DNA from: an uncultured Flavobacteriales bacterium
GTDB lineage: Bacteria; Bacteroidota; Bacteroidia; Flavobacteriales_F; PHOS-HE28
Length of the DNA: 64,000 nt
Assembly (NCBI GenBank): GCA_937872175.1
Contig: CALMPI010000043.1
Span: forward strand, 1 to 64,000
Direction of reading: 5' to 3'
Shown one piece after another: positions 9,513 through 61,700 of the stretch. Each line of letters opens with the position of its first letter. The stretch's first letter is position 1. The position numbers and the translations under genes were made by a program. The notes beneath the pieces were generated by a model that was not told the origin of the DNA, did no database searches, and saw only the letters and a list, made by a program, of their open reading frames with translations.

Positions 9513-9824
9513 TCAGTTCCCTGACGAACCGATGTTCTTTTTCTTGTTCCGTTCCCCGTCGGCATCCTCATCCCCATCATCGGAGATGTCCCCGTCGTCC
9601 TCACCACCCTGCTCGTCGAGGTCTCCGGAGCGCAGGATGCCTTCCGAGCTCTGTGGCTCTTCCTTCAGGATGGACGTCGAACCGTTGTCCGCCTCATTGG
9701 GTCCCTGTTGCAGCCGTTTGTCCTCACCGGTCAGCACATCACCTGCAGGTACGACCTGCTCCTTGGTGCAGGCGGCCAAAGCCACCACCAAGAGCAGGAA
9801 GACGATGAGGTTCCGGACCATCAT
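9513..9824 (-). CDS. Small acidic lipoprotein
   Basis: The 103-residue protein has a lipoprotein signal (LLLVVALAAC), with the lipidated Cys near residue 19. The mature part is low-complexity and very acidic (GGEDDGDISDDGDEDADG), then has a basic RNKKK patch. No domain is recognised. Its ATG overlaps the stop of the histidine kinase gene as ATGA, which suggests translational coupling. The end of the kinase gene also carries a full -7 element (TACCTTTG, 9829-9836) 4 nt before this ATG, so it probably also has its own leaderless transcript. The tract could be a calcium-binding or charge spacer; that is speculation. Confidence 0.7.
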   Translation of the reverse strand: MMVRNLIVFLLLVVALAACTKEQVVPAGDVLTGEDKRLQQGPNEADNGSTSILKEEPQSSEGILRSGDLDEQGGEDDGDISDDGDEDADGERNKKKNIGSSGN

Positions 9825-12800
9825 GTTCCAAAGGTAAGGTGCCCGGGGCCGGATCGCAAATCCGGAGCGGTGGAAGGGGATGGACCGTTGCTCGGCAGGT
9901 CGATGGTGACCTGTGTGCCCTTGATCCGACCGTCTCCGCCCTGCACCTGCTCGGGACCGGTGATCCGGATGTCCGTCACTTGGAGGTTCCGCAGCACGTC
10001 CGCCCGCCCTTTGGTGATCTCGATCCCTCTGGAGATGTGGTCCCCGCTCTGCTTGAGCGCTTTGCTCTGTTCGATGCCAAGCCCATCATCGGCGATCACC
10101 ACCCGCACCCGGCCGGCCTCTCCCGGGTGGACCCGGATGCTGACCTGACCTTGGCGCTCGGTGGGCAGGATGCCATGCCAGATGCTGTTCTCCACGTATG
10201 GCTGCAGCATCATGGCCGGCAACCGCACCTGGAACGTGTCCACTCCCGGATCCACCGTCAGTACGTAGCGAAAGCGGTCCTTGAAGCGCATGTGCTCCAG
10301 GACGAGGTACAGCTCCAGTCGTTCCAGCTCCTCCGCAAGGCTGGTGGTATCGCTCTGGCTGGCATCAAGGTTCTTGCGGATGAGCTTGGCGAAGCTGGTC
10401 AAATAGCGGTTCGCCGTGGCCCGGTCCTGTTTGTTGATGTGGAACTGGATGCTGTTCAGGGCATTGAAGATGAAGTGCCGGTTCATGTTGGCGTTCAATG
10501 CCTGCTGCTCGAGCTGGAGCATGCGTGAGCGGAGCATCAACTGGCGGGTGCGCTCCAGGCGATGACGCTGAACGGATCGATACCGGGCCACACCGCCCAC
10601 CGAGCCGATCACCACCGCCCCGGTAAGCGCGAAGAACCACCATCGGGCCCAGAACGGCGGCTGTACATCGAAGGAGTACTCCTTCGGTGGGCTCCATCGG
10701 CCGTTGCGTCCCCTGGCCATCACTTGGAACACGTAGTGACCGTGGGCCAGGTTGCTGAAACTTGCCGATCGCACATCCGTTTCCGGCAGCCAGTCATTGT
10801 CATGGCCCAGCAGGCGATAGCGGTAGACCACCTGCTCCGGAGCGCTCAGGCTGATGCCGGTGAAATCGAAGGTCAGGTGGTTGCGCTCGTAGGGGAGCAG
10901 GAGGCCGGTGGGAAGCCCCGACAAGGGGTCGGTACCGGTGGACCGCCCCTCCCAGCCCGAGGGCCTGAGGAACCAGCGCAGGCCGGTGATGTGCAGCGGG
11001 ATGACGTCCGCGTGCCGGGTGGGCTCCGATGCGGGCGGATGAAGCACCAGTCCGCGCGAGGTGCCGAAGAACAACCGGCCCCTGGTGTCCAGATGCGATG
11101 CGTTCAGGTTGCACTCCAGGCTCAGCAGCCCGTCGCTGCTCGTGTAGTGGGTCACCCCGCCCCCGGTGGCCAGCAGGCTGTCCGGTGCCACCTGGAAAAG
11201 GCCGTTGTTGGTGCCCACCCAGATCCGTCCGTCGCTCGTCACACGCAGCAGATCGATGTAATTGGAGCCGAAGTCCGGTGCAAGGCGGAGCACACGCGGG
11301 CCGGATCCGGTGAAGCAGACCAGACCGTCCGCGGTGCCGGCCCAGACCCGTCCGCGGCGGTCCTCAGCCAGGCAGTACACCGCCCCGGTCGGGAGCTCCC
11401 GGCCGGCGGCCCAGGTCGTCCAGCCCTTCGCGCCACGCCGCGCCACGCCCACTTCATGGGCCACCCATAAACGGCCTTCGCCGTCGCGATGCAGGGCCCG
11501 GATGGACCGGAGCGGTACGCCGGGCGGTCCGGGTTCCCGCCGCAACCGGTCCTCGCGGATCGAGAACAGCCCTTCCCGGGCGCCGCACCACAGCGTCCCG
11601 TCCGGATCCTCGTGCAGGGCCACGATGCGATCATCGCGAAGGGACAGGCTGTCCGGAAGCGGCACCACCACGCCATTGCGCAGCCTGCACAACCCATCGC
11701 TGGTGCCGAACCACAGGCTGTTGTCCCGGCGCCGCAGCCCGGTCCATACGGTGTTGTTCGGCAGCCCGTCCAGCGTGCTCACCAGCGCCATGCCGTCCAT
11801 CCGACAGATCCCGTTGCCGTACGTCCCCAGCCATAGGTCGTTCGCGCTATCGGCCACCAGGCACATCACTTGATCGCTGCACAATCCGTCGCGCTGCGTG
11901 TAGGTGACGAACCGGTCCCCGGTCCAGCGCAGGATGCCCGCCCCATCCGTTCCGAGCCACAGGTCGCCATTGTCGTCCACCGATACGCACCAGATGTTGT
12001 CGTTCGGCATGCCCTGGTTCACGGTGAGCGCCCGGATGCGTCCGCCTTCGATGACGTTGACGCCGAACTTGCTGGCCAGCCATACGCGGCCCTGGCGATC
12101 GATCGTCACGCTGCGTACGTTGTTCTGCAGGAGCCCGTCGGTCTCATCGATCTCCTCCACGGTGCCATCGGGCCGGAGCGCGAAGACCCCTTGTCCGAAC
12201 GTGGCCACCCAGAGGGTGCCATCCTCGCCTGCGGCCATGCTGCTCACGTTGGAGCGGTCCTCGCTGCCCAGGATCACGGTCGAGCAGCGGCCATCGGCCC
12301 ATCGGAGCAGGCCGTTGCGCAGGCCGATGTGGACGGTGCCATCCGCCAGGCAGAGCAGCGATCGCACAGTACCGGCGGTATCCGTGGGAAAGCCCTCCAG
12401 ATCATGCACCCTGCCGTCCTCGTGCACCAGCACACCCCGGTCCTCCACCCCGATCAGCACCCGCCCGCGGGCATCCGTGGCCAGGGCGGTGATGCGCGGG
12501 CGGTCGAGGCCCGGCAGCGGGATGGGGATCACCTCCGTACCGTGCCTGAAGCTCACGAGGCCTCCGCCGGTGCCGCACCACATCGAGCCGTCGGGACGCG
12601 GAAGAAGGGCGTTCACCTGCGCGTCGGGCAACCCTTGTTGCAGAGCATGGTTGCGGAACCCGCTGCCGTCGAACCGGCTCACGCCGCCCAGCGTACCGAC
12701 CCACAGAAAGCCCTGTTCGTCCTGGGCGATCGTGCGCACCTGGCTTTGGGCGAGCCCGTCCCTGGTGGTGTAGTGGATGAAACCGAACTGCTGGGCATGC

Positions 12801-13715: not shown

Positions 13716-14489
13716 TCAACGGACGCGTTCGAGGAAGTCGGCCACGCGTTCGCGTGCGATCGGGACCCTCCGCCCGTCGCGGAGCACCGCCCAATGGCCG
13801 TCGTCGCGCAGGTATTCACGCAGGTGCTCCAGGTTCACGATGTGCGAGCGATGCACCCGCAGGAACAAGGCCGGATCGAGCAGTTCCTCATACACGCGCA
13901 GGGTGCGGGTGTCGAGGTAGCGCGTGCCATCGCTGAAATGCAGCTGGGTGCAGTTGCCCTCGGCCTCCAGGTGGCTGATGCGGTGCGGGTCGAACAGCTT
14001 GAACCCTTTGGCGTGATCGATCACGATGCGGCCCGCGGGCAGTGAGGCCTCGCGGACGGCGGCGTTCAACCTTGCCCGATACGCCCTCGCCTCCGCTGGC
14101 CGTTCATGCTGTTCGCGGATCCGCCCGAGGGCCTTCATCACCGCCGCCCGCAGCTCATCGGGATCGATCGGCTTCAACAGGTAGTCCACCGCATGGGTGT
14201 GAAAGGCCTGCAGCGCGTAGTCCTTGAAGGCCGTGACGAAGACGACCAGGGCGCGCAGGTCGCGGAGCTCGGCCAGCAGGTCGAGCCCCTCGGTGCCGCT
14301 GGGCATGCGGATGTCCAGGAAGAGCAGGTCGGGGTCAAGTTCCGCGATCCGCTCGCGCGCTCTCACCGGTCCATCGGCCGTTCCCGCCACCTCCACCTCG
14401 GGGCATAGGTCCTCCAGCATCAGCCGCAGGTTCTCCCGGGCGGGTTCCTCGTCATCCACGATCAATGCCCGCACCCGCTGCGCCCCCAT
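13716..14489 (-). CDS. LytTR-family response regulator (second copy)
   Basis: The 257-residue protein has a receiver domain (VDDEEPAREN, phosphoacceptor Asp59 in LFLDIRMPSG, Thr in FVTAFKDYA, Lys in LLKPID) and a LytTR DNA-binding domain (ISHLEAEGNCTQLHF, LFLRVHRSHIVNLEHL, VPIARERV). It shares its layout and several identical motifs with the next gene, so the pair probably arose by duplication. The start at ATG 14489 (MGAQRVRALIVDDEE) is supported by a -7 element (TATTTTCG, 14495-14502) only 5 nt upstream. The frame is open up to 14645, but that extension is low-complexity. It is the first gene of the regulator-regulator-kinase-lipoprotein unit. Confidence 0.88.
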   Translation of the reverse strand: MGAQRVRALIVDDEEPARENLRLMLEDLCPEVEVAGTADGPVRARERIAELDPDLLFLDIRMPSGTEGLDLLAELRDLRALVVFVTAFKDYALQAFHTHAVDYLLKPIDPDELRAAVMKALGRIREQHERPAEARAYRARLNAAVREASLPAGRIVIDHAKGFKLFDPHRISHLEAEGNCTQLHFSDGTRYLDTRTLRVYEELLDPALFLRVHRSHIVNLEHLREYLRDDGHWAVLRDGRRVPIARERVADFLERVR

Positions 14490-14494
14490 TTCGG

Positions 14495-14502
14495 CGAAAA
14501 TA
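14495..14502 (-). promoter_or_regulatory. -7 element (TATTTTCG) abutting the LytTR regulator start
   Basis: The minus strand reads TATTTTCG, then five bases, then ATG at 14489. This is a leaderless arrangement and probably the main promoter of the signalling operon. Confidence 0.5.
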
Positions 14503-17257: not shown

Positions 17258-18562
17258 TCACGCCACCACGTTTCTCCGGCTCATCAACTCCTCCACCGCA
17301 TCCGCCTCCACGGGGATGTCCGCGAACAGATCGATCGGGTTGTCGCGCGACACCAGGATGTTGTTCTCCAGGCGGATGCCCAGCTTCTCCTCGCGGATGT
17401 AGATGCCCGGCTCCACGGTGAAGACCATGTCCGGCTGGATCATCTCGTTCCACAGGCCCACGTCATGCACGTCGAGCCCCAGGAAGTGGCTGGTGCCGTG
17501 CATGAAGTACTTCTTGTAGAGCGGGCGTTCGGGGTCCTGCTTCGCCACGTCGGCCTTGTCCAGCAGGCCCAGGCCGATCAACTCGCTCTCCATGATCTTG
17601 CCGACCTCCTTGTGGTAGTCGGCGAGCAGGGTGCCCGGGCGCAGCAGTTGCGTGGCGGCGTTCTTCACGCGCAGCACGGCGTTGTACACGTCCTTCTGCC
17701 GCTTGGTGAAGCGGCCGTTCACGGGGATGCAGCGGGTGAGGTCGCTGGCGTAGCCGCCGTACTCGCAGCCGAAGTCCATCAGGATCACATCGCCGTCGTT
17801 GCACACCTGGTCGTTGGTGATGTAGTGCAGCACGCAGGCGTTGTAGCCGCTGGCGATGATGGGCGTGTAGGCATGGCCGCGCGAGCCGTTGCGCAGGAAC
17901 TCGTGCGTGATCTCGGCCTCGATCTCGTATTCCTTCACGCCGGGCTTCACGAAACCGCACACCCGCTCGAAGGCCTTGCCGGTGATGGCGATGGCGCGCT
18001 TCATCTGCGCCACCTCCTCCTGCGTCTTGCGGCTGCGGATGCGGTGCATGATCGGCGCGCTGCGCTTCACGCTGTGCAGCGGGTATTGGGCACGCAGTTC
18101 TTTGTTCTTGCGGTCCTCGCGCGTCTCCACCTCGTTGTGCTGGCGCAGGTGCTCGTTGCTGTTCAGGACCAGGTGCTCGCACTGCGGCACCAGGCGCTTG
18201 ATCGTGGCCTCGTAGCTGCTCGTCCACAGCACGGTGGCGATGCCGCTCAGGTCGCGCGCCTCCTGCTGGGTGAACTTGGCGCCTTCCCAGATCGCGATCA
18301 GCTCGCTGGTCTCGCGCACGAAGAGGATCTCGCGGTCCTTCGGGTCCACCGCATCGGGGAACAACAGCAGGATCGTCTCCTCCTGGTCGATGCCGGTCAG
18401 GTAGAAGATGTCGCTGGCCTGCTTGAACGGCATCGTGCCATCGGCGCTGGTGGGCATGATGTCGTTGCTGTGGAACACGGCCAGGCCGCCTTTCTCCAGG
18501 TGCTGACGGAAACGGGCGCGGTGCTCGCGGTAGGTAGCGGCTGAGAGCGGGTTGTAACGCAT
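17258..18562 (-). CDS. pepP: Xaa-Pro aminopeptidase (M24 family)
   Basis: A cytoplasmic dinuclear metallopeptidase that removes N-terminal residues preceding proline. The 434-residue protein has an N-terminal creatinase-like domain and a pita-bread catalytic domain with all five expected metal ligands: Asp in MDFGCEY and Asp in YASDLTR, His in HGTSHFLGLDVHD, Glu in VEPGIYI and Glu in GIRLENN. The start at ATG 18562 (MRYNPLSAAT) is chosen over an open frame reaching 18739. It matches homologue N-termini and lies 4 nt after a -7 element (TACCTTCG, 18567-18574), so the mRNA is probably leaderless. It is monocistronic, with a terminator at its 3' side. Confidence 0.93.
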   Translation of the reverse strand: MRYNPLSAATYREHRARFRQHLEKGGLAVFHSNDIMPTSADGTMPFKQASDIFYLTGIDQEETILLLFPDAVDPKDREILFVRETSELIAIWEGAKFTQQEARDLSGIATVLWTSSYEATIKRLVPQCEHLVLNSNEHLRQHNEVETREDRKNKELRAQYPLHSVKRSAPIMHRIRSRKTQEEVAQMKRAIAITGKAFERVCGFVKPGVKEYEIEAEITHEFLRNGSRGHAYTPIIASGYNACVLHYITNDQVCNDGDVILMDFGCEYGGYASDLTRCIPVNGRFTKRQKDVYNAVLRVKNAATQLLRPGTLLADYHKEVGKIMESELIGLGLLDKADVAKQDPERPLYKKYFMHGTSHFLGLDVHDVGLWNEMIQPDMVFTVEPGIYIREEKLGIRLENNILVSRDNPIDLFADIPVEADAVEELMSRRNVVA

Positions 18563-18566
18563 AGGG

Positions 18567-18574
18567 CGAAGGTA
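18567..18574 (-). promoter_or_regulatory. -7 element (TACCTTCG) abutting the aminopeptidase start
   Basis: On the minus strand TACCTTCG, four bases, ATG. Leaderless arrangement, one mismatch to TAnnTTTG. Confidence 0.6.
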
Positions 18575-40371: not shown

Positions 40372-43300
40372 TCAGAAGAAGGCGCGGATCTGCGCGCCAC
40401 CCACGTGCACAGCAGGCGTGTTCTCGCTCTTGCGCCCGTTGTAGGTGATGTCCACCTGCAGGTTCTGGTTCAACCGCCGCTGGATGCTGAGGCTCCAGGT
40501 CCAGTTGGTGCCCACCTTCAGGCCGCCGAGCATCTCGTTGCCCAGGCTGGTGTTGGGGTCACCGTCGTAGCGGATGTCCACCAGGTCCAGGTTCAACTGG
40601 ATGCTGCCCTTGCCGGCGGTGTTCCAGCGGGCTTCCAGCCCCAGGTTCTGCACGGTGGCGGCCTCGCCACCCAGTTCTTCACGGTTCAGTTTGTCGGTGT
40701 AGCGGTAGCTCAAGGCTGCGCGCAGGTCGGTGTTGGGCCTCCAGGTGATCCGTGGCCGCGTGGTGTACTGGCGGATGCTGTACGTACGGCCGCTCAACAG
40801 GTCCGAGGCGTTGGCCACCCGCCCGGCCTCTCCCTCCAGGTCCGCGGTCCACTGCTGGGTGGTGTTCCAGCGGATGCGCACCTGGTTCAGTTCGCGCAGG
40901 CGTGATTCGAAGCCGTTCAACAACAGGGTCTTCGTGCGGTCGCTCTGGAAGGTGTGGTCCACGCTCCACTTGGGGCTCGTGCGGTCGTAGAACAGGGTGT
41001 TGCGCAGCGAGCTCGTGAAGGCGGTGAGCAGCGTATCCGCCGGATCGATGCGGAAGGGGTCGAGCGCCTGCCCCAGGTCGGCGGTGCTCGTCTTGCGGTC
41101 ACTGCGGAAGGAGGCCAGGTCGGAGAACTTGGCGATGAACCGGCGGATGCCCGTGCGCCCGCCCCAAGCCACCGACGGCCGCAGGTCCAGCGAGGCGCTC
41201 AGCTGATTGCTGAAGGTGCGCGAGTAGGTGTTGCTGGGCACGAACACCCGCACGTAGTTGGCCTCGTAGCCGAAGTTGGCCTGCTCGAACTCGTTGAGCT
41301 CCTTGAGGCCGTTGCCGTTGTAGTCGTTCCAGATGTACAGGCCCTGCCCGGCGGGCACCTCCACATAGAGGAACTCGCGTTGCTGCTCCAGCCCCGACCC
41401 CAGCTCATAGAACAGGTCCCACACGGCCACCCCCTTGCCCAAGGTGAGGTCGTGGTCGATGCGCATCAGGTAGGTGTCCTCCGGCCGCTGAGCGGTGAGG
41501 GTGCTGTCCACGATGCGGAGCTGCCGGTAGGTGAAGGTGGTGGCCAGCCGGTGGCGCGCATCGCGGCCCACGCCCAAGGTGGCCGTTCCGGCCGTGGCCA
41601 CCGTGCTGCGCGCGAGCCCGCCGTCGCGCAGGCCCTGGTCGTAGCGCTGGCCGCCGCCCACGCGGAAGGTGGTGCGGGCCGTGTCCCGGCTCTGGATGAA
41701 GGCCTCCCAGTCGTAGAACTGGTAGCTGCCGGCCAGCAGCGCCGACCCCGTGTCCGCCCGAAAGCGGTTGCGTTCGTGCTCATCCTGCAGGCCGATGGTG
41801 AACCAGCGCATGCGCCGCGCCAGCCGGGCCTTGTGCCGCAGGAATTCGGTGCGCACCGGGTCCGTGGTGGTCAACAGGCTGGCGGTGCCGGTGAGGTCGA
41901 AGCGGCCCGGGTGCAGGTCGCTGATCAGGTCGTGGCGCCATCCGGCATACCGGTCGCGGACCTGGAAGGTGTTGATCACGTAGCGCAGCCGCCCGGCCTT
42001 GCCCGCCCGAAGGCCCACACCCAGGCCGGCCAGCAGTTGGTCGCCGTCGAGCGGACGGCCCACGGCGTTCCAGTTGCGCTCGAACTCCACCGCACGGTAC
42101 CGCTCCACGGGGGTGAAGGAGGCGGTGAGCGCCTCGGTCTCCAGCCCCAGTTCCAGCGCCCAGGTGCTGTCGGCCGCACGCAGGGGGATGGCCTGGTCCG
42201 CCTTGACCCGTGCGGCGAAGGCCTGGTCGTCCGCCGCATCCCGGCCGCTGAAGGTGTTGCGGTCATAGCGGCCGTAGGCCAGTTCGGTGCTCAGCCTCAG
42301 CCCGCCGGCGGTGCTGTGGTCCGCGCCCAGGGTCACCACCTGCTGGGAGCGGGGCGGGATCAGCACACGCACCGGGGCATGGTCACCGCGCCGCACGATG
42401 GCACCGCCCACCGTGTCCGGCGCCACCCAGCGGAACACCCGGCCGTTGGGCGTGAACTCCTGCTGCACATAATCGCCCAGCCCGGCTCCGACGGTGGAGA
42501 AGGTGATGCGGTACCGCGCGCTGTCCGGTGAGGTGCTGTACACGTACACCGGGCTGTAGCCCAGGGAGTCCACCGCCTTGTACAGCACCTGGTCGGCGTT
42601 GTAGGCCACGGTGTCCACCCCGGGTGCCACGGCGGCCAGGGGATCGTCGCCCGCTTCGGCCAGGGCCAGTTGCTCTTCGTCCGTGAGGTCCTGTTGCAAT
42701 GGCTGCCCCTTGTGATCCTGCTCGCTGAACACATTGAGCCGAAGGGTCGTCCGGCCACGCGTCCAGGTGTCGTCCAGCCGCACCAGCGTGCGCATGTAGT
42801 TGCGGTCCGAGTACTGGAACTCCACGGTGATGCGGCGGTCCTTGGTGATCAGGCGGCGGGCGGTGAAGGTGAGCTCCGCGGTGTTGTAGTCGATCACGTA
42901 GTCGTTCTCCTGGCCGCGCACCAGTTGCTGGCCGTCGATGAAGACACGCTCGGTGCCCGAGAGGATGATGATGAAGGTCTCACCGGCATCGCCGCGCAGC
43001 CGGTAGGGGCCCTGAACGCCTTCGACCCCCTGGATGACATTGCGCGCGAACTTGCCCTTGGAGATCGCGACGGAGGTGCCCAGCGCATTGGTGGCCTTCG
43101 CACCCTTCATGCGGGTGTTGAACGAGAGGCCCTTCGACTTCTTGAGGTAGGTGAGGAAGTGGCTGTTCGGGCGCTGAAGCACGAAGTCGCCGGCGATCAG
43201 CTCCCAGTTCTCCTCGAACAGCTTGATGAACACCTGGTCGAAGTCCTGCAGCTCCAGGGTGTTCCCCTCGGCTTGGATGGGGATGTTGTTGTCCGTGATC

Positions 43301-43875
43301 GAGGCCTGCACCTGGATGCGGTCCGTGATGCGGCCGCTGAGCTCCAGGTTCAGCGAGGAGTTCACCGACAGGTCCTGGTTGTTGCCGAAGAGGATGCCGC
43401 GCGAGATGCTGCCGCTCTTGTTGAGGCCGGCGTTGCCGAAGAGGTCCTCGCGCTGCGAGGGCGCCTCGTACTTGAAGGGGTCGCGCCGGTCGGGGTCCTC
43501 GCTCAGCAGCCGCATGCGGTCCTTGTGCCGCCGTTCGCCGGCGAAGAGCAGGGGCCACACCCGGTACCGGGCGATGAGCGTGTCGCCGACCGCGCCGCCG
43601 ATCACCCAGAGCCTGGCGCGGTAGGGGTCGAGCCGGTGGTCGGTGGACGGCATCTCGGCGCCTGCCCGCCACAGGGAAAGGCTGCCCGGTGCGATGCTCA
43701 GGGTGTCGAGCACAAGGGTGTCGCCGGTGAGCACGATGCTGCGCGTGCGCCGGTTGTCACCGGGGCCCTGACCCAGGACCTGCAGCGCCGGCACCAGCAC
43801 CAGCAGCAGGGGCAGGAGCACGACCCCCCGGGAACGGGCCGGACGCGGTGCGGTGGTGGTAGGGTGGCGCCCCAA
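40372..43875 (-). CDS. Large outer-membrane-type protein of unknown function, probable TTG start
   Basis: The protein is about 1167 residues from the proposed TTG at 43875. A signal-like segment (VVLLPLLLVLVPALQVLGQ) is followed by a domain with SGSISRGILFGNNQDLSVNSSLNLELSGRI and DNNIPIQAEGNTLELQDFDQ, then FRWVAPD. The last ~500 residues are alternating beta strands ending in an aromatic F-F, typical of a barrel. I recognise it as a Bacteroidota family of about 1100 residues without assigned function. The ATG at 43917 is also in frame, but the -7 element TAATTTTC (43881-43888) lies downstream of it and 5 nt before the TTG, so a transcript from it would not contain the ATG. A GTG further in is a third option. 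Confidence 0.75.
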   Translation of the reverse strand: MGRHPTTTAPRPARSRGVVLLPLLLVLVPALQVLGQGPGDNRRTRSIVLTGDTLVLDTLSIAPGSLSLWRAGAEMPSTDHRLDPYRARLWVIGGAVGDTLIARYRVWPLLFAGERRHKDRMRLLSEDPDRRDPFKYEAPSQREDLFGNAGLNKSGSISRGILFGNNQDLSVNSSLNLELSGRITDRIQVQASITDNNIPIQAEGNTLELQDFDQVFIKLFEENWELIAGDFVLQRPNSHFLTYLKKSKGLSFNTRMKGAKATNALGTSVAISKGKFARNVIQGVEGVQGPYRLRGDAGETFIIILSGTERVFIDGQQLVRGQENDYVIDYNTAELTFTARRLITKDRRITVEFQYSDRNYMRTLVRLDDTWTRGRTTLRLNVFSEQDHKGQPLQQDLTDEEQLALAEAGDDPLAAVAPGVDTVAYNADQVLYKAVDSLGYSPVYVYSTSPDSARYRITFSTVGAGLGDYVQQEFTPNGRVFRWVAPDTVGGAIVRRGDHAPVRVLIPPRSQQVVTLGADHSTAGGLRLSTELAYGRYDRNTFSGRDAADDQAFAARVKADQAIPLRAADSTWALELGLETEALTASFTPVERYRAVEFERNWNAVGRPLDGDQLLAGLGVGLRAGKAGRLRYVINTFQVRDRYAGWRHDLISDLHPGRFDLTGTASLLTTTDPVRTEFLRHKARLARRMRWFTIGLQDEHERNRFRADTGSALLAGSYQFYDWEAFIQSRDTARTTFRVGGGQRYDQGLRDGGLARSTVATAGTATLGVGRDARHRLATTFTYRQLRIVDSTLTAQRPEDTYLMRIDHDLTLGKGVAVWDLFYELGSGLEQQREFLYVEVPAGQGLYIWNDYNGNGLKELNEFEQANFGYEANYVRVFVPSNTYSRTFSNQLSASLDLRPSVAWGGRTGIRRFIAKFSDLASFRSDRKTSTADLGQALDPFRIDPADTLLTAFTSSLRNTLFYDRTSPKWSVDHTFQSDRTKTLLLNGFESRLRELNQVRIRWNTTQQWTADLEGEAGRVANASDLLSGRTYSIRQYTTRPRITWRPNTDLRAALSYRYTDKLNREELGGEAATVQNLGLEARWNTAGKGSIQLNLDLVDIRYDGDPNTSLGNEMLGGLKVGTNWTWSLSIQRRLNQNLQVDITYNGRKSENTPAVHVGGAQIRAFF

Positions 43876-43880
43876 GGGCG

Positions 43881-43888
43881 GAAAATTA
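43881..43888 (-). promoter_or_regulatory. -7 element (TAATTTTC) 5 nt before a TTG start
   Basis: The minus strand reads TAATTTTC, five bases, TTG at 43875. It has one mismatch to TAnnTTTG and suggests a leaderless TTG-initiated mRNA. Confidence 0.45.
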
Positions 43889-43976: not shown

Positions 43977-43984
43977 TACATTTG
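43977..43984 (+). promoter_or_regulatory. -7 element (TACATTTG) 4 nt before a GTG start
   Basis: TACATTTG is a perfect TAnnTTTG match; four bases later the GTG at 43989 begins the substrate-binding protein gene. Confidence 0.6.
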
Positions 43985-43988
43985 GCCG

Positions 43989-45722
43989 GTGACCTTGGAG
44001 AACGCACGGAACCCGTGGCTGTTGTGCACCGCGGCCCTGGCCCTGCTGATGGCCTGCGGCGGCGACGGTGAGGACCGCGTTCGGCGCGTTCAAGGCGGCA
44101 AGCAGTACGGCGGGGTCTTCAACATGAACGAGGACGGCGGGGTGCGCAGCATCTTCCCGCTTCATCTCTCCCAGGCCGCCGAGCATCGCATCGCCTCGCA
44201 GATCTATCAAGGCCTGGTGCGCTTCGATCCGGCCGACCTGAAGGTGCTGCCCTGCCTGGCCGAACGCTGGGAGGTGGATGCCGACGCCACCACCTTCACC
44301 CTCCACCTGCGCAAGGACGTCCGCTTCCACGCGGATCCGGCGCTGACCTCCGAGGACGACCGCCTGGTGGACGCGGAGGACGTGCTGTACTGCTTCCGCG
44401 CGTTGTGCACGGCCGACCCTGAGAACCGCATGTTCTGGCTGTTCCAGGACAAGGTGCTCGGCGCCAACACCCACTATGCGAACACCGCCGCCGGCGGCGA
44501 CCGGGAAGCGCCCATCGCCGGGCTTGAGGTGCTTGATCGGCACACCTTCCGCATCAAGCTGGCCCACCCCAACGCCGGTTTCCTGCAGGTGCTGGCGCAC
44601 CAGGGCTGCTGGATCTATCCGCGGCAGCTGGTGGAGGCCTACGGCGATGACCTGATGGCGCACGCCATCGGCACGGGACCGTTCAAGTTGCGCACCTATT
44701 CGCCGGCCGAGGCCTTCGTGCTGGAGCGCGACCCCGATCACTGGGACCGCGACGAGCATGGCAACCCGCTACCCTTCCTCGATGCCGTCCGCATCACCCT
44801 CGACCCCGACAAGAACAAGGAGCTCGAGGCCTTTCTGGCCGGGCGCCTGTCCTGCCTCACCGAACTGCCGGTGGACCGCCTCGGCCTGGTGAAGGACTCG
44901 GTGGATGCGGCGGGCAGGAAGCGGTTCATCCTCCAGTCCGTCCCTGGCTCGGCGGTGCAGTTCTATGGGTTCAACCTGCACGCCCCCCCGTTCGAGGACC
45001 CCCGGGTGCGCCGGGCCTTCAGCCTCGCGATCGACCGGCGCTATCTGGTGGACAGTGTGCTGGGCGGGCTGGCCGTGCCCGCCGAGCATGGCTTGGTGGC
45101 GCCCGGCCTGTCCGGTTATCCGTACGACGCTGTGGCCGGGCACCGGTTCGATCCCGAGGCGGCGCGGGCGCTCCTGGCCGAGGCCGGCTTCCCCGGTGGG
45201 AGGGGCTTTCCCCAGGTGGTGCTGAACGCCAGCCCTGGCTTTGGGTACATCCAGGTGGCGGAGGCCGTGCAGGACATGCTGCAGCGCCATCTCGGCGTGC
45301 CCCTCATCCTGTCCGTACTGCCCATGGACCAGCACTACACGTCCATCGAGCGCGGACGCGCACGCTTCTGGCGCGAGGGCTGGGTGGCCGACCTTCCGGA
45401 CGCCGAGAACTTCCTCTCCCTGCTGTACGGCAAGAACGCCCAGGCCGACACGGCCCTGCCCACCTACCTGAACACCACCCGCTATGCCGATGCGCGCTTC
45501 GACTCCCTGTTCGCCGAGGCGCAGCGCACCGTGGATGACGCCCGGCGCATGCAGCTCTATGCTGCCGCGGAGAACAAGGCCATGGCCGATGCGCCGGTGA
45601 CCCCGCTCTACCACGAGCGTACCATCCGGTTGCTGCGACCCGATGTGCGGGACATGCCCCTGAACGCGATGGACCTGCGCGACCTGGGCCGCGTGTGGTC
45701 CGATCCCGGCGTCAGCCGCTGA
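43989..45722 (+). CDS. ABC transporter substrate-binding lipoprotein (peptide/nickel class, SBP family 5)
   Basis: The 577-residue protein starts at GTG 43989, which the -7 element supports. It has a lipoprotein signal ending LLMACGG. The mature protein follows the family 5 pattern: IYQGLVRFDP, LAERWEVDADATTFTLHLRKDVRFH, DAEDVLYCFRAL, IGTGPFKLRTYSP, DPDHWDRDEHGNPLPFLDAVRI and the RRAFSLAIDRRYLVD segment. Such proteins bind oligopeptides or related solutes for import. No permease or ATPase genes are adjacent, so the partners must be elsewhere. Its stop overlaps the end of the convergent gene by 11 nt. Confidence 0.88.
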   Translation: MTLENARNPWLLCTAALALLMACGGDGEDRVRRVQGGKQYGGVFNMNEDGGVRSIFPLHLSQAAEHRIASQIYQGLVRFDPADLKVLPCLAERWEVDADATTFTLHLRKDVRFHADPALTSEDDRLVDAEDVLYCFRALCTADPENRMFWLFQDKVLGANTHYANTAAGGDREAPIAGLEVLDRHTFRIKLAHPNAGFLQVLAHQGCWIYPRQLVEAYGDDLMAHAIGTGPFKLRTYSPAEAFVLERDPDHWDRDEHGNPLPFLDAVRITLDPDKNKELEAFLAGRLSCLTELPVDRLGLVKDSVDAAGRKRFILQSVPGSAVQFYGFNLHAPPFEDPRVRRAFSLAIDRRYLVDSVLGGLAVPAEHGLVAPGLSGYPYDAVAGHRFDPEAARALLAEAGFPGGRGFPQVVLNASPGFGYIQVAEAVQDMLQRHLGVPLILSVLPMDQHYTSIERGRARFWREGWVADLPDAENFLSLLYGKNAQADTALPTYLNTTRYADARFDSLFAEAQRTVDDARRMQLYAAAENKAMADAPVTPLYHERTIRLLRPDVRDMPLNAMDLRDLGRVWSDPGVSR

Positions 45723-47550: not shown

Positions 47551-47558
47551 TACTTTTG
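47551..47558 (+). promoter_or_regulatory. -7 element (TACTTTTG) 4 nt before the DAHP synthase start
   Basis: A perfect TAnnTTTG match followed by four bases and ATG 47563; leaderless arrangement. Confidence 0.65.
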
Positions 47559-47562
47559 CAGC

Positions 47563-48684
47563 ATGAGCCGCCTGACGCCGGAGCTGGACCCGCTCCCCTT
47601 GGACCAATGGGGTCTGGGTTTGGAGCGTCCGCTGCACATCGCGGGGCCGTGCAGTGCCGAAAGCGAGGAGCAGGTGATGGCCGTGGCTGCAGGCATCCGG
47701 CGGCATGCCCCTGGTGTACGGGTGTTGCGCGCGGGGGTGTGGAAGCCGCGCACACGGCCCGGCGCCTTCGAGGGGGCCGGCGAGCCCGCGTTGCGCTGGC
47801 TGCGTTCCGCGGCCGATGCCACCGGACTGCTGGTGGCCACCGAAGTGGCGACACCCCACCACGTGGAGGCCGCGCTCAAGGCGGGGATCGACCTGCTCTG
47901 GGTGGGCGCCCGCACCACGCCCAATCCGTTCAGCGTCCAAGCCATCGCCGACGCCCTTGCCGGGGTGGACGTGCCCGTGCTGGTGAAGAACCCCATCAAC
48001 CCGGACCTGCCCTTGTGGGTGGGTGCGCTGGAGCGTCTGCACCGCGCTGGCATCCGCCGCATGGCCGCCGTGCACCGCGGATTCAGTTGGTCGGGGCACA
48101 CGCCGTTCCGCAACACCCCGATGTGGGAGTTCCCCATCCGGCTGATGGCCGCCTGCCCGGGGCTGCCCATGGTGTGCGACCCCAGCCACATCGCCGGCCA
48201 CCCCGACCGGCTTGCCGATGTGGCCCAGCAGGCGCTCGATCTCAACTTCAGCGGGCTGATGGTGGAGGCGCACCCCGATCCGGAGCACGCCCTGAGCGAT
48301 GGCGATCAGCAGGTGACCCCTGAGGCCTTGGGCGCGCTTCTGGCCGGTCTGGCGCATCGCGAAGCAGCCCCGGGCCCCCGGTTGCGCGATCTTTTGGACG
48401 AACTGCGCGATCAGATCGACCAACTGGACGCGGACATCGCCCAGAAGCTCGCCGAGCGCCTGGACATCGCCGAACGCATCGGGTTGTACAAGAAGGAGCA
48501 CAACGTGGCCATCCTGCAGCCCGAGCGCTGGGAACGCATCATGGCCGCCCAGCACGACCTCGGCCGCCGATCGGGCCTTAGTGCGGCCTTCATCGAAGCC
48601 TTCATGAACGCCGTCCACCAGGAGAGCATCCGACGACAGACCGAAGCCTGGGAACGCGCCCTCGAACCCGCGGCAGGATCCTAA
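47563..48684 (+). CDS. Bifunctional 3-deoxy-7-phosphoheptulonate synthase / chorismate mutase
   Basis: Catalyses condensation of phosphoenolpyruvate with erythrose-4-phosphate and, through the fused domain, chorismate to prephenate: the first and a branch step of aromatic amino acid synthesis. The 373-residue protein has a KDO8P-synthase-like DAHP synthase domain (AGPCSAESEEQV, VWKPRTRP, ARTTPNPFSVQ, CDPSHIAGHPDR). A type II chorismate mutase domain begins near residue 275 (LRDQIDQLDADIAQKLAERL, IGLYKKEHNVAILQPERW). The order catalytic-CM is typical of this fusion in Bacteroidota. It is probably transcribed leaderless from the -7 element at 47551-47558. Confidence 0.93.
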   Translation: MSRLTPELDPLPLDQWGLGLERPLHIAGPCSAESEEQVMAVAAGIRRHAPGVRVLRAGVWKPRTRPGAFEGAGEPALRWLRSAADATGLLVATEVATPHHVEAALKAGIDLLWVGARTTPNPFSVQAIADALAGVDVPVLVKNPINPDLPLWVGALERLHRAGIRRMAAVHRGFSWSGHTPFRNTPMWEFPIRLMAACPGLPMVCDPSHIAGHPDRLADVAQQALDLNFSGLMVEAHPDPEHALSDGDQQVTPEALGALLAGLAHREAAPGPRLRDLLDELRDQIDQLDADIAQKLAERLDIAERIGLYKKEHNVAILQPERWERIMAAQHDLGRRSGLSAAFIEAFMNAVHQESIRRQTEAWERALEPAAGS

Positions 48685-51664: not shown

Positions 51665-51672
51665 TTACTTTG
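51665..51672 (+). promoter_or_regulatory. -7-like element (TTACTTTG) 5 nt before the ThiF-like gene
   Basis: TTACTTTG, one mismatch to TAnnTTTG, is followed by five bases and ATG 51678. Probable leaderless promoter of the molybdenum-cofactor operon. Confidence 0.5.
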
Positions 51673-51677
51673 GCGGC

Positions 51678-52346
51678 ATGCGCTCCACGGCTCCACCGCT
51701 CCGGTCCACTGTGCTGGTGATCGGCATCGGCGGGTTGGGCCATGCGCTGTTGGAACGCTGTGCCCGGCTGCCGGTCCGGCGCCTCACCTTGGTCGACGGC
51801 GACCGGGTGGAGCCGCACAACCTGGAGCGCCAGCCGCTCTTCGCGCCGGTGGACCTGGGACGGCCCAAGGTGGCCGTGGCCGCCGCATGGCTGCGCCAGG
51901 CCATGCCGGGCACCCTCATCGACGTGGTGGACGCCTTCGCTGACGCGGACTCGCTGCCGAACCTGGTCGAGCAGCACAGCATCGTGGTGGACTGCACGGA
52001 CGATGTGCATGCGCGGACCCTGATCGATCGGGTATGCATGGAACACCGGATCCCCCTCGTCAGCGGAGCCGTGCATGGGAGCGAGGGCCAGGTGCTGGTG
52101 CTGCATGCGCCGGACGGTCAAGGCGATCCGTCGCTTACGCGTGCGCAGGTGTTCGCCGGACGGCCGGGTCCGGGCCAGGACGAGTGCGACATGCGCCAGG
52201 TGCCGTTGGAGGTTCTGGAGGCCGTGGGCGCATGCATGCAGCAACGGGTGGGCGACCTCATCGCCGGACGACCTGTGGAGAACGGTGCCCTGGACCTGTA
52301 CGCGGGGAGCCGATGGACCCGGTTCGCGCCACCGCTGCCGACCTGA
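51678..52346 (+). CDS. Compact ThiF/MoeB/HesA-family adenylyltransferase
   Basis: The 222-residue protein belongs to the E1-like superfamily that adenylates the C-terminal glycine of sulfur carriers such as MoaD. It has the nucleotide-binding IGIGGLGH, VDGDRVEPHNLERQPLF with the NxxRQ motif, and VDCTDDVHARTLID. The C-terminal zinc CxxC pairs of standard MoeB are absent; only DECDMRQ remains in that area. It heads an operon with moeA, mobA, moaD and moaE, so MoaD is the likely substrate, making this the MoeB of the cluster. The start at ATG 51678 follows the promoter element by 5 nt. Confidence 0.82.
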   Translation: MRSTAPPLRSTVLVIGIGGLGHALLERCARLPVRRLTLVDGDRVEPHNLERQPLFAPVDLGRPKVAVAAAWLRQAMPGTLIDVVDAFADADSLPNLVEQHSIVVDCTDDVHARTLIDRVCMEHRIPLVSGAVHGSEGQVLVLHAPDGQGDPSLTRAQVFAGRPGPGQDECDMRQVPLEVLEAVGACMQQRVGDLIAGRPVENGALDLYAGSRWTRFAPPLPT

Positions 52347-56578: not shown

Positions 56579-56586
56579 TACCTTCG
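56579..56586 (+). promoter_or_regulatory. -7 element (TACCTTCG) 4 nt before the nucleoid-associated protein start
   Basis: TACCTTCG, four bases, ATG 56591. Leaderless arrangement; it separates this gene from the molybdenum-cofactor operon. Confidence 0.6.
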
Positions 56587-56590
56587 CCGC

Positions 56591-57613
56591 ATGATCAACG
56601 GCAAGGAGGCGATGGTGGAGGAACTGGTGCTGCACCGGGTGGGCACGGATGGATCGCCCAGCGTGCTCTCCGACGTGAGCGCCGTGCTGCAGGGGCCCGA
56701 GGAGCAGGAGTTCCTGCGCCGCCTCTTCCTGAAGCCCTTCGCCTCGGTGGCCGTCACCCACACCTTCGGCGACGGAGCGCAGGGTGCTGACAACGCGCTT
56801 CAGGCCCTCTGCGCCAAGGCTGCGAAGGCGAAGGACCTGGTCGGCGTGTCCAGGGCCATCGCCAAGCTCCTCATCGACACCGCCGCGGAGCATGAAGTGC
56901 GTGCAGGGGACCTCTTCGTCGTCCGCTTCCACGCCGTGGAGCTGGCCGGGGCCGTGCACGATGCGGTGGGCATCCTCAAGTTCGACGACAAGGAGGTCTT
57001 CCTGGAGAGCAAGGTCAGCGGGAGCCACATCGGCATGCGCCTCAAGCGCGGGCTGGGGGGGCGCAGGCCGGACCAGGCCCTGCTGGTGCTCTTCACGCCC
57101 GGGGAGCACACCGTGCTGGTGATCGATGACGATCCGCGCAGCGGGTTCTGGCAGCAGGCCTTTGCCGGGCTCCGCACCAAACAGGACCACGTGAACAGCA
57201 CCAACAACCTGCTGGAGATGACGCGTTCGTTCATCACCGAGCAGCTCCCGCAGGACTACGAGATCCCGAAGGCCGACCAGATCGACCTGCTGAACCGCTC
57301 CGTCCAGTACTTCAAGGACAATACGGAGTTCGACCGGAGCTCCTTCGCCCGCGAGGTGTTCCAAAGCGAGGAGGTGATCGGCTCCTTCGAGCGCTTCGGC
57401 GACCGCTTCCAAGAGGAGCGCGCCGTGGACCTGGAGGACCGATTCGCCATCAGCGCCGACGCCGTGAAGAAGCAGGCCCGTGTGTTCAAGAGCGTGCTGA
57501 AGCTGGACAAGAACTTCCACATCTACATCCACGGCGACCGCAACAAGATCGAGCGGGGAGTGGACGAGAGCGGCCGGAAGTTCTACAAGATCTACTACGA
57601 GCAGGAACTGTAG
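56591..57613 (+). CDS. 37-kDa nucleoid-associated protein (NdpA/YejK family)
   Basis: The 340-residue protein matches the nucleoid-associated NdpA family: a start resembling ELVLHRVG, VSRAIAKLLIDTAAEHEVRAGDLFVVRF, IGILKFDDKEVFL, then a C-terminal domain with NRSVQYFKDNTEFDRSSFAREVFQ and FKSVLKLDKNFHIYIHGDRNKIERG. Family members bind the nucleoid in Gram-negative bacteria, and many are found near mobile or phage-related loci, though no such genes are adjacent here. It has its own promoter element and faces moaA convergently, with a CATGTG palindrome between. Confidence 0.88.
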   Translation: MINGKEAMVEELVLHRVGTDGSPSVLSDVSAVLQGPEEQEFLRRLFLKPFASVAVTHTFGDGAQGADNALQALCAKAAKAKDLVGVSRAIAKLLIDTAAEHEVRAGDLFVVRFHAVELAGAVHDAVGILKFDDKEVFLESKVSGSHIGMRLKRGLGGRRPDQALLVLFTPGEHTVLVIDDDPRSGFWQQAFAGLRTKQDHVNSTNNLLEMTRSFITEQLPQDYEIPKADQIDLLNRSVQYFKDNTEFDRSSFAREVFQSEEVIGSFERFGDRFQEERAVDLEDRFAISADAVKKQARVFKSVLKLDKNFHIYIHGDRNKIERGVDESGRKFYKIYYEQEL

Positions 57614-57645: not shown

Positions 57646-58632
57646 CTATCCCCCGATCGCCACCATCGGCCGTGCGCTCAGGTCGTGGAGCACTTCTTCC
57701 TGTGTATCGGGCCTGAAGGGAGGTAGTCCGCCGAGCATGGCGTGCTTGGCCAGCACATTCGCCTCGATCAAGGGCACGATGTCCTCGCCTCGGCGCAGGG
57801 CGGACAACAGGTCGGTCTCCTCGCGGGCGAAGAGGCAGTTGCGCATCTTTCCTTCCGCGGTCACCCGCAGTCGGTCGCAGGTGCCGCAGAAGGGCTCCGT
57901 CACCGTGCTGATCACGGCGAAGGTGCCGGGCCAGCCCGGTACCCGGTAGGCCTTGGCCGTGCTGTGCGGGTCGTCGTTCAGTTTCTCGAAGGCATGCACA
58001 CTGCCGATGCGGCCCAGCATCTCGGCGTAGGTGTACACGCGATCGCGGCCCCAGTGGTTGCCCGCGAAGGGCATGAACTCGATGAAACGGACGTGCAGGT
58101 CGTGGTCGCGGGTGAGCTCCACGAAGCGGAGCAGTTCGTCGTCGTTCACCTTGCGCATCACCACCATGTTCACTTTCACCCGGAGGCCCTTCCGCAGGGC
58201 GAGCAGGATGTTGGCATGCACCGTGTCGAAACCATCGCGTCGCGCGATCTTCCGGAAGCGATCCGCATCGAAGGTGTCCAGGCTGACGTTCACCCCCTTC
58301 AGACCGGCATCGAGCAAACCATCCAGGTGCTTGTGCAGACTGAGCGCGTTGGTGGTGAGTCCCAGCTTCACCGGCAGCTGCGAGAGGTCGCGCACGATGC
58401 CCACCACATCGGATCGCACCAGCGGTTCGCCTCCGGTGAGCCGGATCTTGGTGATCCCGTAGCGCACTGCGAAGAGCCGCGCGATGGTGGCGATCTCCTC
58501 CCGTGTCATCAACTCCTCGCGCTTCAGGAACTGCTGGTCCTCCGGCATGCAGTAGGTGCAGCGCAGGTCGCACTTGTCCACGATGCTGATGCGCAGGCTG
58601 CGGTGCGTGCGGCCGTGCCGGTCGGTCAACAT
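57646..58632 (-). CDS. moaA: GTP 3',8-cyclase MoaA
   Basis: A radical SAM enzyme for the first step of molybdenum cofactor synthesis (GTP to 3',8-cyclo-GTP). The 328-residue protein has the SAM cluster motif CDLRCTYC (Cys21, 25 and 28), the TGGEPLVR motif, and the C-terminal second cluster CGTCDRLRVTAEGKMRNC. It ends in the GG pair essential for activity. The start at ATG 58632 (MLTDRHGRTH) lies 4 nt after a -7-like element (TATTTTTC, 58637-58644), so the mRNA is probably leaderless. It is on the opposite strand from the other moa genes, with NdpA in between. Confidence 0.95.
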   Translation of the reverse strand: MLTDRHGRTHRSLRISIVDKCDLRCTYCMPEDQQFLKREELMTREEIATIARLFAVRYGITKIRLTGGEPLVRSDVVGIVRDLSQLPVKLGLTTNALSLHKHLDGLLDAGLKGVNVSLDTFDADRFRKIARRDGFDTVHANILLALRKGLRVKVNMVVMRKVNDDELLRFVELTRDHDLHVRFIEFMPFAGNHWGRDRVYTYAEMLGRIGSVHAFEKLNDDPHSTAKAYRVPGWPGTFAVISTVTEPFCGTCDRLRVTAEGKMRNCLFAREETDLLSALRRGEDIVPLIEANVLAKHAMLGGLPPFRPDTQEEVLHDLSARPMVAIGG

Positions 58633-58636
58633 GCCC

Positions 58637-58644
58637 GAAAAATA
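58637..58644 (-). promoter_or_regulatory. -7 element (TATTTTTC) 4 nt before the moaA start
   Basis: The minus strand reads TATTTTTC, four bases, ATG 58632. One mismatch to TAnnTTTG. Confidence 0.5.
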
Positions 58645-58704
58645 GCCCCGCGGCCGGGTGCCCCGCTTGCCGAGCTTTGCCCTGTCCGCTTTCGCCCGGC
58701 CCGC

Positions 58705-61700
58705 ATGCGTCCCGTCCTGCTGATCGCCACCTTGCTGAGGGTCCTCGCCATGGACGCCCAGCTGCTGTTCGACCGTATCGGTGTGGAGCAGGGCCTGCCG
58801 TCCGACGAGGTGCATGCCCTCTTCGAGGACCGTGATGGGTTCGTCTGGGTGGGCACCACCGATGGCCTCGCCCGGCTGGAAGGGACCCGTGTGCGGACGT
58901 TCCATCATGATCCGGTCGACAGCAGCAGCCTGGCGCACGACCAGGTCAACGGCATCGACCAGGCGCCTGATGGAACCCTCTGGTTCGCCACCATGAGCGG
59001 GCTGTCCCGGTTCGTGCCCCGCTCCGGCACCTTCGTCAACGTGCGGGTCACGGCCTCGGGTAATGACGCCCTTCAGGCCAACCGCATGCGCCAGGTGGTG
59101 GCCGTGGGCGACACGCTGCTCTGGGTGGTCACCGAGGCCGGGCTTTTCCGAGGCGACCCGCGGAACGGGCGGCTCCACAGCGTGCAGGACCGTCCACCGG
59201 GGGAGGGTCCGGCCGGCCGCGTGCGATCCAACTCCTCGCTCTTCTGGGATGCACCGAGCGCCACCATCTGGGCCGCCACGGCCCGGGGCATCGCGTCGTG
59301 GGATGCCGCCACCGATCGGTGGACGGACCACCGCAACAGCACGATGCTGCCATGGTCGGACCTCTCGGCCACAGGGGCGCCGGTCGTGCATCAGCAGGCC
59401 TTGTGGTACATGCGGCATGGCCCCTACACGCTGTTCCGGTACGATCTGCGGACCGGCGACCTCGCCGCCTTGCCCGCTGTCGAGGAACGCCCCGATCGCT
59501 TCGAGCTTCGCTGCCAGGCCTTCGATGCCGAGGGCCGCCATTGGATCGCCACCTGGACGCACCGCCTGTTCGTACGCGCGCCGAACGGGCCCTGGTCGGA
59601 GGTGCGACCGGATGGGATCGGATCACCATCCACCCGTGCGGGGTGCCTGCTGCCGATGCGCTCTGGTGTGTTCCTGCTCGGGACCGCCGGGGGTCTGGCC
59701 GTGCTGCGGCCTGGGGCGCAGGCGCATACCGTCCTTCCCTTCGATGCGTCGCCCTTCGCGGTCTCCGTCCTCCGTGCCTGGGGAGAGGATACGCTGCTGG
59801 TGGGCACCGAGGGTGCTGGTGTGCACCTCGTCGATCGCCGGACCGGCGCATCCACCGCACTCCGGGTCGACGTGCCTGGAGCACCCGATGATGTCCGCTA
59901 CGCCGCCAACCTGGTGCATGCCTTCGGTGCCATGGCCGGTGGGCGCGTGCTGGTCTGCACGGGCCGTGGCCTGGCCGAGCTGGATGTACACGCCGCCACC
60001 CTTCGTCCCGCCAGGGGCATCACCGAGCTGTTGCCCAACGGTGCGGCCACCGTCTTCACCTTCGCTGAGCGCACCGAGGATGCGCTGTGGCTCGGCACCT
60101 GGCAGCGCGGGCTGTGGCGCGTGGACCCGCTTGCGGGTGAAGCGCAGCGCGTGGACACCGTGGACGGTCCATGGGGGCGGCTGCCGAACCTCATGCTGCT
60201 CAGCTGGCTCTCCACGGCCGACGGTGGTCATTGGGCCGGGCTGAACAACGGCGGAGGCCTGGCCCGGTTCCACGGGGGCCGCTGGTCGGCCGTGATGAAC
60301 GCCGCAGGCGCCCATGTGGGCGGCGTGGTGCGCTGCATGGCCCAGGGTCCGGACGGCCTGCTGTGGCTGGGCACCCATGAGCATGGGCTCGTTGTGCACG
60401 ACCCGGCCGGCGTATCCGAGCGGTATTTCGGGCGGCGCGACGGACTGCCCGGCACGCGCATCCTGGCGCTGTGCGCCGCGCGGGACGGTTCCATCTGGGC
60501 CGCCACGCCACAGGGGCTGGCGCGTCGACCACCGGGCGCGGCCACCTTCGCCGCCATGCAGCTGCCCTCGGCACTGGACGGGCAGGCGTTCTCCCGGGCC
60601 CTGGTGGAGCTGCCCGACGGCCGCCTCGCCATCGGGGTCGGTCCGCGGATCCTGCTGCACGATCCCCTGCGCGAACGACATGGGCCGCCGCCGGTCCCGG
60701 TGTTCACCGCCCACCGCGTGGGTGATGCGACCGTGCTCGGTGCGCCGGCGGACCTGGCCCTTGAGCCCGACCGAAAGGCCCTGATGCTTGAACTGGGCGG
60801 CCTCGGCGTGATGCCCGGTGAGGCCCCGCTCTTCCGCTACCGCACCCTTCCTGCGGATCCCGCGTGGAAGGAGATCGGTACCGCCAAGCGGATCGATCTG
60901 TTCGATCTGGACCCGGGATCGCATCAGGTCGTGGTGCAGATCAGCCTTGACGGTGTGCACTGGGCGCCGGAAGAGGCCGTGGCGGCCGTGCAGGTGTTGC
61001 CACCCGTTCACGCCACCTGGTGGTTCAGGGCGCTGGCCCTGCTCGCGTTCGGTGCGGTCGCCTTCGCCGGGTTCAAGGCCTACCTCCATGCGCGGTTGCG
61101 GCGGCAGCGCGAGGCGTTCGAGCGGGAGCAGGCCGTACTGGCCGAGCGGATGCGGATCGCCGGGGACATGCACGACGACCTGGGGGCCGGGCTCAGCGCG
61201 CTGAAGCTGCGCAGCGAAATGGCCCTTCGCGTGGAACAGGACCCCGCCAAACGTGCGCACCTCGGCTCCCTGGCCCGGACCGCCGGTGAGCTCATCGGCA
61301 GCATGCGCCAGATCATCTGGGCCATGAACGGCGACCAGGCCGAGCTGGCCGACCTGGTGGCCTACACCACCAACCACGCCCGCCGCTATTGTGATGAGCA
61401 TGGCATCCGCCTGCGGGTGGACGTGGACGAGCGGATGCCGCTGCGGACCTTGAGCGCCGAACAGCGGCGCAACATCTTCCTGGTGGTGAAGGAGGCCCTG
61501 CACAATGTGGTGAAGCATGCCGCCGCCCGGCAGGTGCACCTGGTGATGGCCTGGGGCGAGGGGGCGCTGGACGTCCGCATCACGGATGATGGGCCGGGGC
61601 CTCCCGCCCACGCCGAGGCCACCGAGGGCAATGGCCTGCGCAACATGGGCCGGCGGATCGCGGCCTTGGGCGGAACGCTCACCCTGGAGCGCTCCACGGA

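Follow-up and report, generated by a model that had tools for sequence, protein, structure and literature searches.

The closest described systems are those of Flavobacterium and Bacteroides, in which the same sigma-A -7 element (TAnnTTTG or TAHHTTTG) is found as in the genome analyzed here, Shine-Dalgarno (SD) sequences are not used, and a minority of messages carry very short leaders (PMC6847099, PMC9723704, PMC7366714). In F. johnsoniae, the -7 element is followed at 4-5 nt by the transcription start site (TSS); leaders exceed 10 nt in 87% of cases, and about 13% of probable promoters give leaders of at most 10 nt (PMC6847099), while 5.5% of messages are leaderless in F. psychrophilum (PMC9723704) and about 3.7% of 5' UTRs are shorter than 10 nt in B. 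thetaiotaomicron (PMC7366714). It is from a few cultured species that leaderless messages have been called rare in Bacteroidota. In Actinobacteria and Deinococcus-Thermus, a sizeable share of genes (averages of 19% and 39%, respectively) likewise has a promoter element whose short distance to the start codon is fixed; however, their element is a Pribnow-like -10 box, unlike the one found here, and the survey, which could identify only Pribnow-like promoters, reported leaderless genes from a single one of 37 Bacteroidetes/Chlorobi genomes (2.4%) (PMC3160421). Finally, Flavobacteriales with an altered anti-SD resemble this genome in lacking SD use and in having a non-canonical anti-SD core, which is UCUCA in Chryseobacteria and relatives and UCUCC here (PMC9976891, PMC10783764). 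The mechanism is already known, and what we describe is a high dose of a known kind, conserved in relatives; added here are a higher share in the lineage, gene-by-gene conservation, pairs of leadered and leaderless orthologues, and the altered anti-SD core.

The window, i.e., the whole stretch of DNA analyzed, covers positions 1-64000 of contig C43 from a 4.3-Mb, 52-contig genome (GC 65.6%, about 66%) of an uncultured Flavobacteriales bacterium, which sets it apart from the GC content and cultured status of the Flavobacterium and Bacteroides systems. The original prediction was that nine of its genes have a TAnnTTTG-like -7 element 4-5 nt before the start codon. With d as the number of nucleotides between the end of the -7 element and the start codon, each of the nine element/start pairs was found at its claimed coordinates:

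9829..9836, minus strand: -7 element TACCTTTG, 4 nt before ATG 9824 and 7 nt before a second ATG at 9821
14495..14502, minus strand: -7 element TATTTTCG, 5 nt before ATG 14489
18567..18574, minus strand: -7 element TACCTTCG, 4 nt before ATG 18562
43881..43888, minus strand: -7-like element TAATTTTC, 5 nt before TTG 43875, the weakest start
43977..43984, plus strand: -7 element TACATTTG, 4 nt before GTG 43989
47551..47558, plus strand: -7 element TACTTTTG, 4 nt before ATG 47563
51665..51673, plus strand: -7-like element TTACTTTG (d=5) or TACTTTGG (d=4), before ATG 51678
56579..56586, plus strand: -7 element TACCTTCG, 4 nt before ATG 56591
58637..58644, minus strand: -7 element TATTTTTC, 4 nt before ATG 58632

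The claimed gap of 4-5 nt was found as well, with d=4 at 9824, 18562, 43989, 47563, 56591, and 58632 and d=5 at 14489 and 43875; of the two options before ATG 51678, the one with d=4 scores better. The match to TAnnTTTG is perfect in only three elements (9829-9836, 43977, and 47551), and the other six deviate. Four of these imperfect elements (TATTTTCG, TACCTTCG twice, and TATTTTTC) match or nearly match the trained consensus of the genome, T-A-C/T-C-T-T-Y-G, and the remaining two, at 43881 before TTG and at 51665, are weaker. At all nine sites, the top-scoring 8-mer within 45 nt of the start is the listed element. Within the window itself, nine genes fall at d=4-7 and other 4-nt bins reach nine (d=40-43); this count alone is not extreme, and the case draws its strength from genome-wide and comparative tests. 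An Rfam search of the window gave no matches.

The nine genes behind the elements are all real. Pfam/NCBIfam matches were obtained for seven of them, and the other two, at 43875 (no Pfam/NCBIfam match for the product) and 9824, are backed instead by orthologues with matching N-termini:

9513..9824, minus strand: small lipoprotein-like gene (103 aa), whose start overlaps the upstream stop by 4 nt (ATGA)
13716..14489, minus strand: LytTR response regulator gene
17258..18562, minus strand: Xaa-Pro aminopeptidase gene pepP (AMP_N, Peptidase_M24)
40372..43875, minus strand: large gene of unknown function, TTG start uncertain
43989..45722, plus strand: family 5 extracellular solute-binding protein gene, with no in-frame start upstream
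47563..48684, plus strand: bifunctional DAHP synthase / chorismate mutase gene
51678..52346, plus strand: ThiF/MoeB-like adenylyltransferase gene
56591..57613, plus strand: NA37 (37-kD nucleoid-associated) protein gene
57646..58632, minus strand: moaA (GTP 3',8-cyclase) gene, by orthology and TIGR02666 above cut-off

Regulators and core enzymes are thereby included, as had been proposed (e.g., the LytTR regulator at 14489 and the DAHP synthase at 47563). Several starts are closely constrained. The DAHP synthase has no in-frame start upstream before a stop and its next one is a TTG at residue 13; in PepP the AMP_N match runs from residue 11, with a GTG at residue 29 as the next in-frame start; in MoaA the profile matches from residue 2, the next start being a TTG at that same residue; and the next in-frame starts of the solute-binding protein are TTGs at residues 3 and 12. 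Gene starts were assigned by a simple purpose-built caller, which missed moaA at 58632. This gene overlaps a long two-component ORF at 57742-61809(+), and its dismissal as a spurious antisense ORF inside the latter was considered and rejected based on orthologues and TIGR02666. The true start of the two-component gene is probably downstream of 58632, its best Reg_prop match beginning near 58792. The nearest named genomes with the DAHP synthase are uncultured Flavobacteriales, and some isolate names suggest activated sludge.

For the genome-wide distribution, distances were taken from TAHHTTYG elements to ATGs opening ORFs of at least 80 codons in 1.19 Mb (28% of the genome), a procedure that involves neither gene calling nor start choice. 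The ATG counts at d=0 to 13 were 1, 0, 0, 2, 21, 11, 10, 7, 2, 3, 2, 2, 3, and 2. This amounts to 49 ATGs at d=4-7 (12.2 per position); the density is 2.3 per position over d=8-13 and 3.8 over d=14-44, and a second, broad hump is centered on d=16-23. The peak at d=4 (21 versus a background of 3.8 per position) has a Poisson p of about 8e-10 and the excess at d=4-7 one of about 5e-12. Reversed and scrambled motifs gave flat distributions, the control GTTTHHAT having four matches in total at d=4-44, and in the whole genome TANNTTTGNNNNATG occurs 33 times versus 6 for the reversed pattern. The 4-5 nt peak that the original prediction had made its own check is present, and its assertion that the spacing goes beyond chance is borne out by the sharp peak at d=4, the flat controls, and the retention in orthologues described below. 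With a TSS 4-5 nt past the element, two modes and an abrupt cutoff below exactly 4 nt are expected, since a start codon at d<4 would be absent from the mRNA and few ATGs should be found at d=0-3.

The size of this class was estimated with an EM model in which the motif, the distance distribution, and the choice of start were all free, applied to 898 genes. The motif obtained was T A C/T C T T Y G, with C as often as T at position 7, a difference from the published element of Flavobacterium and Bacteroides. The model expects 144 of the 898 genes (16%) at d=4-7, versus 24 for shuffled upstream regions under the fixed model, so that about 13% remain once the null is subtracted. A refit with reversed upstream regions was unstable for the full set, assigning a motif to every gene, and was excluded there. 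Among genes that are first in their transcription unit, 95 of 532 were placed at d=4-7 (EM nulls 8-23), and a run on inner-operon genes alone was dropped as it converged on an unrelated motif. Counted from the elements, 27% of those with an ORF start within 44 nt have it at d=4-7 (95% range 21-34%). The share among element-bearing genes is about 24-30% (27-30% by the self-trained model), varying with the element degeneracy accepted, and as a sequence-based estimate it is a different measurement from the published 3.7-13% in Flavobacterium and Bacteroides, which are RNA based. Judged from sequence, about a quarter of the recognizable housekeeping promoters lie 4-7 nt before a start codon, with messages that probably begin at that codon. 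The proposed common leaderless translation is thus upheld at the level of some 13-16% of genes and a quarter of recognizable promoters, but leadered genes still dominate.

The near absence of SD sequences was confirmed: SD-like motifs precede 1-5% of genes, as they do in the reversed control, and are at control level in every gene class, with 1% in leaderless-like genes versus 0% in the reversed control. The 16S tail reads AACAUCUCCUUUUU, the 3' end being GGCUGGAACAUCUCCUUUUU (L218, G000:C35:258-1781, minus strand). Its anti-SD core, UCUCC, differs by one change from the canonical CCUCC, based on the single 16S gene found in this draft genome. An rpsU gene with an SD matching the UCUCC anti-SD was looked for, and no rpsU was found in the genome portion examined. 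Two near-equal RpoD-like sigma factors were identified, both about 290 aa, starting with MRQLKITK and without an N-terminal extension or region 1.1, as in the short Bacteroidota type:

L219, G000:C24:3727-4434: RpoD-like sigma factor
L220, G000:C23:16682-17389: RpoD-like sigma factor

As for the -33 TTTG, leadered genes show a weak enrichment of TTG 19-21 nt upstream, which is not clear in the leaderless set; the -33 element is also weak in F. johnsoniae (PMC6847099).

Conservation was assessed in same-genus stretches of up to 20 kb, with 83 orthologues having an aligned N-terminus and with elements scoring at least 5 bits. An element at d=4-7 is kept in 62 of the 83, versus 9 expected from upstream control windows. 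The DAHP synthase at 47563 has d=4-6 in all but one of its 20 same-genus orthologues, at protein identities as low as 63%. Measured against the protein, its start codon and element are displaced together, by anything from -3 to +9 nt, while the spacing stays at 4-6. Similar retention was seen for the LytTR regulator at 14489 (d=5-7 in 11/12), moaA at 58632 (d=4-5 in 7/8, often with a GTG start), the solute-binding protein at 43989 (same spacing in 4/5), and the ThiF/MoeB-like gene at 51678 (d=4-7 in 14/14, with a control rate of 0.25). For the lipoprotein-like gene at 9824, the start in relatives corresponds to the second ATG (d=7), and at 43875 the element and the TTG are conserved, whereas the upstream reading frame is not. 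Two genes behave differently. The short spacing of pepP is shared with G025 alone; in most other relatives, this element or one like it lies 17-35 nt upstream. In NA37, the same TACCTTCG element is 4 nt from the start here and 35-38 nt upstream in four of the closest relatives (L068, L069, L070, and L081), so that the leader would be about 31-34 nt shorter here, which looks like a recent leader loss. Being leadered in most relatives, pepP and NA37 are predicted natural leader-loss pairs, ready for asking how non-SD ribosomes pick start codons.

In a wider survey, an exact TAHHTTTG was required with an ATG at d=4-6, 9-11, or 20-22. This genome gave 56/22/30 (controls 4/4/3) and 34 same-genus genomes gave 1527/701/899, with d=4-6 exceeding d=9-11 in 32 of the 34. 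Two same-genus genomes are without a d=4-6 peak (G021, 8 versus 8, and G027, 16 versus 17). In the phylum sample, d=4-6 exceeds d=9-11 in 47 of 48 same-class genomes; in the AT-rich same-class genome G212 (genus g28, 200 kb) the raw share is 11%, not above control. Family f44 from another class (G159, G163, G171, G194, and G202) gave 484/138/168 versus controls of 164/158/161, and families f37 and f43 show little or no d=4-6 peak. Within the phylum sample, d=4-6 exceeds d=9-11 by the largest factor in f44. A dominance of leaderless genes in f44 was considered and dropped, the share of about 29% (0.12-0.50) coming from a 174-kb sample that is nearly all G202. Since the peak is found in many genomes and is small in others, it is a general but variable feature of Bacteroidota promoters. 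Leaderless use had been presented as a trait of this genome; the peak is real, but it is common to much of the class and not special here.

Taken together, we consider it very probable that the elements belong to sigma-A (sigma-ABfr type) promoters with the start codon at the TSS or 0-3 nt past it, giving leaderless mRNAs. An ordinary housekeeping sigma-A promoter would have its -7 element very near the gene, RNA polymerase would begin the transcript with the start codon itself or 0-3 nt ahead of it, and the ribosome would start on the 5'-terminal AUG (sometimes GUG) without SD pairing, by the general leaderless route of an initiator-tRNA-loaded 30S or 70S. The transcription start point is placed by analogy with F. 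johnsoniae, and both it and the translation of a leaderless message are inferred. Some of the cases at d=6-7 may carry leaders of 1-3 nt and be leaderless only in a loose sense, and 9824 could be translated by coupling, given its ATGA overlap with the upstream stop.

Non-SD initiation in Bacteroidota draws on upstream sequence context (PMC6847099), and start context matters here too, C being strongly enriched at -1 and -2 before all starts. The TTTG-like sequence could accordingly be read as a translation-initiation signal, either U-rich or a ribosomal-protein-binding site, with the true TSS further upstream. We regard this as improbable, because the full TA..TTYG recurs with an unchanged consensus at d=16-23, which would not be expected of a translation signal tied to one spacing and indicates a function independent of contact with the start codon; in the pepP and NA37 orthologues, too, the element lies 17-38 nt ahead of the start. 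In addition, inner-operon genes carry an exact element at d=4-7 less often (4/243) than other genes do (36/655, p=0.007), a depletion that fits a promoter rather than a ribosome signal. It is slightly less probable still that the promoters are real but the start codons mis-assigned, with translation beginning downstream on a leadered mRNA: 14489, 51678, and 56591 do have in-frame alternatives a few codons downstream, and 43875 opens with TTG, but no other start is plausible for the DAHP synthase, moaA, pepP, or the solute-binding protein, the MoaA and AMP_N profiles match from close to the N-terminus, and the element-start spacing is conserved among orthologues. Lastly, a coincidental placement of a short AT-rich motif beside start codons, which a degenerate element and the small sample of the window might allow, has next to no probability and is already refuted by the distance distribution, through the genome-wide excess at d=4-7, along with the orthologue retention far above expectation and the recurrence of the peak across the genus.

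With promoters at or next to the start codon as the preferred reading, a broader one is offered tentatively, as having somewhat less than an even chance of being right: leaderless initiation may be a standing second translation mode at about a quarter of promoters in this high-GC genus without SD use and with a UCUCC core, with genes switching by leader loss or gain and leaders of ~3-9 nt being selected against. The data suggest that the leaderless share varies among lineages, with about a quarter of recognizable promoters in this genus. The finding also bears on annotation: start codons in these genomes can be recognized by a -7 element lying 4-7 nt upstream.

Leaderless-like genes (n=105) start with 93 ATG and 12 GTG versus 180 ATG and 8 GTG in leadered genes, alternative starts having been scored for ATG only. 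C at -1 was considered as a leaderless initiator and rejected, being equally strong in leadered and inner-operon genes. The enrichment of C before start codons reaches 62-77% at -1 and 50-59% at -2 across all gene classes (1.19 Mb), and the corresponding context in F. johnsoniae is A-rich.
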